Shown here: piece by piece, positions 60,101 to 63,100 of the stretch | Layout of the letters: every line of letters begins with the position of its first letter | Numbering within the stretch: position 1 is the first letter of the stretch | Position numbers and translations under genes: made by a program | NCBI RefSeq assembly: GCF_028583425.1 | Contig: NC_072805.1 | Location: forward strand, 15,758,001 to 15,822,000 | Source: Eublepharis macularius | Lineage: Eukaryota; Chordata; Lepidosauria; Squamata; Eublepharidae | Length of the DNA stretch: 64,000 nucleotides | Direction of reading: 5' to 3' | The notes under the pieces: model-generated | What the model saw: the letters and a program-made list of their open reading frames with translations, nothing else | Databases searched by the model: none | What the model was told of the DNA's origin: nothing

Positions 60101-63100
60101 TCTTGCAATCTGAGTTTGGCATGGAAATGTCACAGCTTGTGCTTTTGCATTTCAGAGCTATTTCCCCCCAGTGTTTACACAGACACACGCGCACACAAAA
60201 ACACACACAGACCATTTTATGTAGGTATATAATATGCGTGGGTAGCATTTCATGCATCTGAGAGAGTTCATGAAAAGCTGTCAAAATAAGTATGTTAATC
60301 TTGGATTCTTATCAGAGAGAATTTGTTTTTGCTGTGACATAACATAGCTGACCGCGCCTTACGGTTTTTATTAATTCTTTTACATGTTTCTGGACTGTGA
60401 CCATGGAAATAAATGACTTGGTAACAGAAATCTCTGAACAGTCTGTGTTATTTTCCAGCCATCATAACAAAGTGTGTTTGTTTAATGTATTGTCGAAGGC
60501 TTTCACGGCCGGAGAACGATGGTTGTTGTGGGTTTTCCGGGCTGTATTGCCGTGGTCTTGGCATTGTAGTTCCTGACGTTTCGCCAGCAGCTGTGGCTGG
60601 CATCTCTCTGAAGATGCCAGCCACAGCTGCTGGCGAAACGTCAGGAACTACAATGCCAAGACCACGGCAATACAGCCCGGAAAACCCACAACAACCATTG
60701 TGTTTGTTTAGTTTGTTTGTATTAATAACCCTACACCTTACAAGTGAAGACAGGGACATGGCCCCAAATGGCATTCTATCTTGAAGTCCCCCATCACCTC
60801 CCTGCAAAGTTCACCACAGAGCTCTGCTGCATCGCCAAGTACAGAACTCAGTTGAAGTTCAAGCTGAAGGCACCTGCAAAGCTCTGCATCATTTCAACCT
60901 GAAGGCAACTGCAGAGCTCAAGGCAGTGCAAACTGCAGTCTCCAACAGAGCTCTGCATCAGCATCAGAAGAAGGCACCTGCAGAGCTTTGCATCAGTGCA
61001 AGCTGCTAGCAACTGCAGAGCTCTTTGGCAGGGCAAATTGTAGGGATCTACAAAGCTGTGCAGTGCTGCAAAGTCCAAGCATCTTCCTAAGTGCCAGTAT
61101 TCTGGTCAAATATGAGTTAGACCTCAGAGGAGAACTGAACTGCGCTGCACAGTTCAACCCAAAACAACATGAACTAAATCATTGGACAGTTCAGAATGAA
61201 AATTCAATGTTTCCTGTTGGCATTCCTTCCAGTCACAGTAGGCAGTCTTCATCAAGTGTGCCCTTCAGATACTGGGAAAGGAGTGTACGAAGCAGTCAAC
61301 GTTCGAACTAACCCATTATGAAACCAGAGGCAACATGAATGACCAATTACATAACCTTCATTGTATGCATGACGATGCCCTTACTACTTTTCCTTAACCT
61401 TAGGAAAAAATGGTGCTTTTGTGCCTCCATCAAACTGGTTATTAAAATGTATAAACAAACGAGATCCAGTGTGGTGTGTTGGGTAGAGTGTCAGACTAGG
61501 ATCTGGGAGACCCAGGTTCGAGTGGTGCTGTGGAAGCTCGCTGGGTGACCTTGGGCCAGTGACATGCTCTCAGCCTACCCTACCTCGCAGGCTTGTAGTG
61601 ACGACAGAATGGAGAAAGAGAAAACAATGTAAGACAGTCTGGGTCTCCACTGGGGAGAATAGTGGAGTTTAGATTAAATAAATAAACAAATAATTACATC
61701 ATAATGCTCTTCATCACCCTGCCTCCATTTACCAATGATGTAGAGCAGGGAAAGAATACATGGTGACATCACAAGAAAAACTGGCTATTACCCCATGTGA
61801 TGTGGAGGGGGGGACTTGACATTGGGCACCATTTTTGGCATCAGGCCTGTGTTGTTCGTAACATGAGGTCTATACGAAAGACTGCCAGATTGCAATATAT
61901 TTACCATCTTGAGGGTGGTCTGCAAAATTTCATCTTCTGTCTTCCCCTTGAGACAACGAACCATCTCGCTTGAGCTTGATGTTTCACAGCCGGCAGATTC
62001 TGTGATTTTCTGCAGTCAAGAGAAAGGTATTTGTCACCATTTTCATGTATTTTTGCTAAGTTAACTATTGATTATATTATATTCACTTGCAGTGAGATAG
62101 GCGGATTATATGTATCATCATCAGCGTGCTACAGGTGTCCGTTTATCCTTCAGAAACTCTTTTTCCAAATATTTTTATTTATCAACAAATAGGGGTACAG
62201 AAAATGGGGGGGGGGGGTTAAAACAGTTTAAAATGCACATTGCAAGGACTATTGAAATATAGTAATGATATGGTAATTGTATGACATTTAAAATATAAAT
62301 TTCAGATATTCAACTTACTCGTAATACTCAGTAATATTTCCTCTTTTCATCTTAATAAATCTCAACATTAGATAAATAGGCATTTACAGTACAATCCTAA
62401 GAAGTGTTACACCAGTCTAAGTCAATTGAAATCAATGGGCTTAGACTGAAGTAACTCTGCCTAGGATTGCACTGTTAATGAATTATATATATTAGTTCAT
62501 TTAAAATGGGGAAAAAAACTATTTAGTATTAACTGATGGTGCTAGAGTGTGCCCTCAAGTCATAGCTGACTTATGGCAACCCCTACCACGGTTTTCATGG
62601 CAAAAGACTAACGGGTGGTTTGTCATTGCTTGTCTCTGCAACCCCATCTTTCCTCCCTGTTTTCTCAGCCCTGTATGTGTGCTGTGTGTGGTTTGTGCTT
62701 GTTTGATTGCCTTTTATTTCCCACTAAATTAAGAAACTTTTCCTGTTCAACATCTACTTGGTTATTTGAGAGTTCTCTAATGAATAATCCTGGTATACAT
62801 AGGTGGAGAATCCCAGTTACTCCCTCTAGTTTACCTCCTTAATGTTAATTCCCCCAAGTAATTAAGGAAACCTCCTCTTTGGGCAACAACAGGTGCCTTC
62901 AATTTCAGTTCTAGCACTCCCTTCAAAAACCTACCTTAGCTAGCTTTCCTGGATGAAGGTCTAGGAGAGCATCAAGGAGAGACACGCCACTTTCAGAGAT
63001 GGCTTTGTGGAACAATCCCTTTGCCAGTGGAGATAAGACCTGAGAAGGGAAGCAGGAATATCAGTGATGGCCTTTCTTCCACTCTCTCTATTTTCATTGC

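Follow-up and report, generated by a model that had tools for sequence, protein, structure and literature searches.

The perfect hairpin at positions 60485-60698 of the window (the whole stretch of 64,000 nucleotides of Eublepharis macularius DNA analyzed here) appears to be a short Penelope-like insertion composed of two cDNAs, each primed by one of the two cut target strands and joined head to head. We consider this double priming to be the best fit to the sequence and give it a probability of about 0.68. The element kind is known, and this copy neatly records how its insertion may proceed and suggests a cheap genomic test.

The insert (copy 1) consists of a 34-bp head at 60485-60518, as the earlier note had described it, followed by a perfect palindrome in which 87 of 87 bases are complementary between 60519-60605 and 60612-60698, around the 6-nt loop CTCTGA. 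The 85-bp arms and 10-bp loop proposed before are this same palindrome, two closing pairs having been counted as loop. It is the longest perfect inverted repeat in the window (arms of at least 15, loops of 3-30), and the folded RNA reaches -193.2 kcal/mol, whereas its shuffles average -68.2 (z = -27.5; 0/200 shuffles as good). The 12-bp target duplication claimed for it, TGTGTTTGTTTA, is exact. Of 20,000 places drawn at random from the window, 5 showed a match of at least 12 at this spacing with 4-bp play, a control made at the spacing of copy 1 only.

The insert was identified by comparison with PAc, a Poseidon element from Anolis carolinensis (green anole; Repbase Poseidon_Ac) whose biochemistry has been studied and of which a 361-nt RNA has been printed (PMC11167929). 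This RNA gave four matches of at least 48 bits in the window, and these are both arms of copy 1 and both arms of a second copy (copy 2). The best of them, at E 2e-20 and 90.6 bits, has 77.5% identity over 129 columns, 6 of which fall in the left flank. The remaining matches in the window did not exceed 28.3 bits, 500 dinucleotide shuffles of the PAc segment reached 31.0 bits at best, and the reversed window 27.4 bits. The arms of copy 1 correspond to the beginning of the PAc ORF, about its first 39 codons, and the sense of arm B aligns to PAc MPAIDVGETSGENASGTWPHSPKDIQQPCDPGHESLRQH. In tblastn searches arm B of copy 1 matched PAc at E 4e-8, in an alignment that overruns the insert and has 39 codons inside it; the other three arms were weak (E 0.002, 0.002 and 0.016), and the reversed window was without a match at E up to 1. 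From the PAc alignments, therefore, the head is the tail of a Penelope-like element (PLE), and each arm is a copy of the start of its ORF, the two lying in inverted orientation. The parts of the insertion are the following.

60473-60484, no strand: left target site duplication, TGTGTTTGTTTA, an exact 12-bp repeat of 60699-60710
60485-60518, minus strand: tail (the head of the earlier note), 34 bp, element-sense 3' end extending to about +119 of the PAc ORF, by PAc RNA alignment
60519-60605, minus strand: arm B, Poseidon ORF start with ATG at 60603-60601, reaching -2, by PAc comparison (-2 read by hand from the joint)
60606-60698, plus strand: arm A with the loop CTCTGA, same element region from -8 to about +84, ATG at 60614-60616, tail-less, by PAc comparison (-8 read by hand from the joint)
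60699-60710, no strand: right target site duplication, an exact repeat of the left copy

The tail is thus present in arm B only and CTCTGA in arm A only. The one-sided tail of 34 bp, ending at about +119 of PAc, is within the 30-40 bp of the optional PLE tail, and the inverted arms flanked by repeats of 12 bp (copy 1) and 9-16 bp (copy 2) correspond to the pLTR arrangement and variable target duplications of PLEs, even if the arms of copy 1 fall short of a full pLTR, most of the 5' untranslated part being absent. The earlier note gives 34 bp for the one-sided extension of Drosophila Penelope too, a figure for which our literature search gave no source paper. Together with the PLE-type hammerhead discussed below and the PAc homology, these features support the proposal that the repeat derives from a Penelope-like element and, as far as homology can tell, the assignment of copy 1 to the Poseidon clade as a member of a known element kind. 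The Penelope ORF that had been predicted beside the repeat was found in part: the arms themselves are the Poseidon ORF start, but neither copy in the window showed the RT and GIY-YIG endonuclease part. As expected for an animal repeat, no relative was found in a phage collection, in viral contigs (two exact patterns) or in bacterial and archaeal contigs (one exact pattern). Text searches of the literature with long arm strings gave no match, and among the hits to shorter strings, judged otherwise by titles and abstract starts, only PMC11167929 looked relevant.

Copies 1 and 2 are the only strong matches to the element in the 64 kb, too few to show the abundance named in the earlier note; its label of a lizard repeat finds a parallel in the similarity to an Anolis element. 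The parts of copy 2 are as follows.

27835-28070, minus strand: copy 2, an apparently older head-to-head copy, by matches to PAc and copy 1
28070-28038, minus strand: tail of copy 2
28037-27961, minus strand: arm B of copy 2, traceable by BLAST from 28037 in to 27961
27835-27929: arm A of copy 2

Between its arms, the 31 bases 27930-27960 are assigned to neither. Arm A extends to -10 or beyond, and arm B can be followed by BLAST to about +9 and no farther, a limit past which a multiple alignment carried it by a few bases. Copy 2 is flanked by its own direct repeat of 9-16 bp within ACAACAGAAGAGATGG, and its outer joints have 3- and 4-letter overlaps that can be attributed to element or target. 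The tails of the two copies are 97% identical over 33 bp and their outer ends agree within a few bases, whereas their inner joints differ. The two copies also seem to differ in age. Copy 1 has 0/87 differences between its arms (upper 95% bound on divergence about 3.4%) and 12 CpG in 214 bp; copy 2 has 3/63, all transitions, in the shared outer part, a count that leaves out the inner parts, which differ more, and 9 CpG in 236 bp. Copy 2 therefore looks older. Arms of palindromes can be homogenised, and copy 1 is either recent or homogenised; its identical arms lend some weight to the suggestion that it is young, weakened by the 3.4% bound and by possible homogenisation.

Elsewhere in the window, two exon-like ORFs on the minus strand, at 33014-33643 (ThiF match at E 1.5e-6, which with 28.0 bits narrowly misses the Pfam cut-off of 28.1) and 20954-21367 (no Pfam match), read like what we take to be the SUMO-activating enzyme subunit UBA2. 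A weak zf-RVT match below cut-off at 34663-35166 on the minus strand (E 0.0021) is probably a LINE fragment. Low-scoring Rfam tRNA matches at 2173-2233 (plus strand, 36.1 bits) and 37030-37100 (minus strand, 32.9 bits) are possibly the heads of tRNA-derived SINEs.

The outer ends of the arms fall beside the main start region of PAc reverse transcription and, presumably, its second start site. Numbered from the ATG of PAc, ACAACAACC is +75 to +83 and CGACAACACAT is +109 to +119. Arm A stops one or two bases past ACAACAACC, at about +84, and the tail of arm B stops at about +119, adjoining the reported start region at +111 to +118. In PAc, an AC-rich loop at 111-118 is where most reverse transcription begins; there are two adjacent start sites, and the sequence separating them makes up the 30-40 bp tail of genomic copies (PMC11167929). 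Because the tail spans this interval, the upstream start site would lie near +84, a coordinate that we derive from the text of that paper. PAc cuts and extends both target strands in vitro, and its start site showed no difference between top and bottom strands (PMC11167929), so that neither start can be assigned to one strand in particular. Initiation by PAc was reported to occur without homology (PMC11167929). The left target end of copy 1 at 60479-60484 reads TGTTTA where PAc antisense reads TGTTCA, and there is no primer-template overlap at its other outer joint; along with the overlaps of copy 2, the similarity of these letters is only suggestive that primer and template may have paired at insertion. 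The 15-mer ACAACAACCCTGTGA at the presumed upstream start of PAc recurs exactly or nearly at 2404-2418, 42597-42611, 2737-2749, 45814-45831 and 19947-19961, and five weaker PAc matches in the window fall on or near it. These recurrences look like an unrelated repeat family, presumably one resembling L2/MIR-type 3' ends.

Insertion by double priming could have proceeded as follows. The element enzyme would make its cuts in the two target strands some 12 bases from each other, so that 3' overhangs remain, and each cut 3' end would prime its own antisense cDNA on element RNA. Starting at the downstream site would give the tailed arm, and starting at the upstream site the tail-less one. Both cDNAs would stop near the start codon and have their ends joined head to head, and fill-in would generate the target duplication. 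Before insertion the site would have held the 12-mer once, as in CATAACAAAGTGTGTTTGTTTAGTTTG. We propose staggered cutting with 3' overhangs, each end being extended, because the geometry of the duplication suggests duplicated letters on the 3' sides of both cut ends. The sequence itself shows the PAc homology, the outer ends, the duplications and arms that are not subsets of each other; that double priming occurred here, with overhanging 3' ends and a joining of the cDNAs, we infer from two copies in 64 kb. The preferred PAc cut motif, ATT, is absent from the duplicated letters of both copies.

A palindrome with perfectly complementary arms and a very small loop is also what self-priming would be expected to leave, that is, one element strand folding back at the head end and being copied into the other arm. 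Self-priming was proposed for rotifer Penelope, and the passages of PMC3846280 that deal with head-to-head PLE palindromes show it to be the preference of its authors. Here, neither arm is a simple fold-back of the other, because the tail is in arm B only and CTCTGA in arm A only. The 34-bp tail of arm B has no template in arm A, which is a strong argument. Arm B in turn is without CTCTGA, a continuation of arm A that is conserved in PAc and in copy 2; this argument is moderate, since in copy 1 the case against fold-back copying of arm B comes down to these six letters. Furthermore, self-priming does not predict the same arm A stop in both copies, and the arms of copy 2 differ in their inner parts. 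The arms thus need not derive from one molecule, and we regard self-priming as an unlikely origin of copy 1, although it may still hold for the rotifer copies in the passages of PMC3846280 that describe them.

That the 64 kb hold two copies whose outer ends agree to within a few bases could also mean that the hairpin belongs to a non-autonomous family, spread as a preformed palindrome by a Penelope enzyme acting in trans; we find this improbable, as the inner joints of the two copies differ in the way expected of separate events. Perfect palindromes are prone to artefacts, and an assembly or replication error might have extended a one-armed insertion into a palindrome. However, the insert has the direct repeat on either side, arm A terminates at a point defined by the element, and the diverged copy 2 has the same layout, which together leave very little room for an artefact. 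Finally, Rfam models of mir-2543 and other microRNAs align to the hairpin with E down to 6e-11, as they might if it were a microRNA precursor or another structured RNA gene. All 18 listed matches were below gathering score (the best 51.9 against 70), the top model matched both strands about equally, as it would any palindrome, and the homology of the hairpin is to a retroelement ORF. We rejected these matches as palindrome artefacts and see next to no chance that the hairpin is an RNA gene.

Double priming therefore stands as the preferred reading, with natural ends that match the start region used in vitro and mutually non-nested arms favoring two priming events over fold-back. We lean, if only slightly, toward the broader view that two-armed mini-copies directly preserve, in the genome, the traces of a Penelope-like enzyme priming from both target ends. 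If so, each two-armed copy would record two cut positions, the two RNA start sites that the opposite target strands used and the point at which the cDNAs were joined, and surveying such copies throughout a genome would reveal the mechanism of insertion as a whole.

The hammerhead proposed for the hairpin calls for a more modest interpretation. Its letters do occur in the order claimed, CTGAAGA at 60608-60614 being followed by one U, the stem GCCAGC/GCTGGC, GAA, ACGT and a C at 60642, and its parts are these.

60605-60645, plus strand: hammerhead homologue with predicted cut after 60642, by alignment with PAc and copy 2 and a count of the pairs
60605-60607/60643-60645, plus strand: hammerhead stem I
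60608-60614, plus strand: hammerhead core, CTGAAGA
60616-60621/60629-60634, plus strand: hammerhead stem II, 6 bp

In an ungapped alignment with PAc, arm A retains C3, U4, G5, A6, G8 and A9, the extra U before stem II, the 6-bp stem II, GAA, ACGU and, at 60642, the C of the cut. A palindromic ACGU is a trait of PLE hammerheads. It is present in PAc (PMC11167929) as well as in copy 1. Across the core and stems I and II, 27/27 pair cells are standard in the three sequences and one pair has changed on both sides; as 150/500 shuffles did as well, three sequences carry no statistical weight. The covariance-model match that the earlier note had named as a check was not obtained: no Rfam hammerhead reached gathering score anywhere in the window, and none appeared with E up to 10 near the motif or near either copy. 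The bare motif, in turn, is not above chance in the window (3 found against 1.09 expected; 10/100 shuffles reach 3). Support for the hammerhead comes from its homology to PAc.

The hammerhead of copy 1 is accordingly described as a putative ribozyme relic. The short fold of arm A is modestly stable (z -2.15; 6/200 shuffles as good), and its predicted basal pairs are not those of stem I. With arm A alone, the predicted probability of stem II is 0.18-0.19 and that of stem I 0.0001, and in the full transcript of copy 1 the hammerhead pairs have a predicted probability of 0.0. The 5' side of stem I lies at the arm joint and takes one base from arm B (a U-G wobble replaces C-G). Arm B of copy 1 has no core, with AGAGAGA instead of CTGAAGA, and arm A of copy 2 has AAAA instead of GAAA. 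Since it would be masked in the transcript and straddles the arm joint, the hammerhead is probably a passenger rather than a working device of this copy. In PAc, the hammerhead cleaves only with the element's own protein and is dispensable for insertion in vitro (PMC11167929).

Although we found no account of a two-armed PLE copy whose arms meet directly in a literature judged mostly by title (Cervera 2014, Schostak 2008 and Craig 2021 could contain one), the components are familiar. Inverted pLTRs and short 3' extensions are treated as known in the passages of PMC8969392; those of PMC12910113 deal with the dynamics of D. virilis Penelope and offer nothing useful on structure, and in those of PMC6050309 Penelope is named only in a methods remark. 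The Penelope elements of Adineta vaga, as described in passages of PMC3846280, share with copy 1 the inverted head-to-head pLTRs, a one-sided tail (31 bp), palindromes at the joints and target duplications (8-10 bp), but keep internal sequence between the pLTRs, whereas the arms of copy 1 meet directly. The hammerhead resembles the minimal type I motif without a proper helix III known from PLEs, to judge from passages of PMC6155905 and PMC7229834, and differs from it in the extra U between core and stem II, which is shared with PAc, and in escaping detection by Rfam.

The closest parallel is PAc itself. Copy 1 differs from it in its 77.5% identity, in consisting of only two inverted 5' ORF pieces without the RT/endonuclease part, and in having CTGAAGA where PAc has CTGAGGA. 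The two agree in the sequence of arm and tail, the position of the tail, an ORF that starts inside the hammerhead, a 6-bp stem II and a 3-bp stem I with ACGU, and the extension of both target strands by PAc offers a plausible route to an insertion with two arms.
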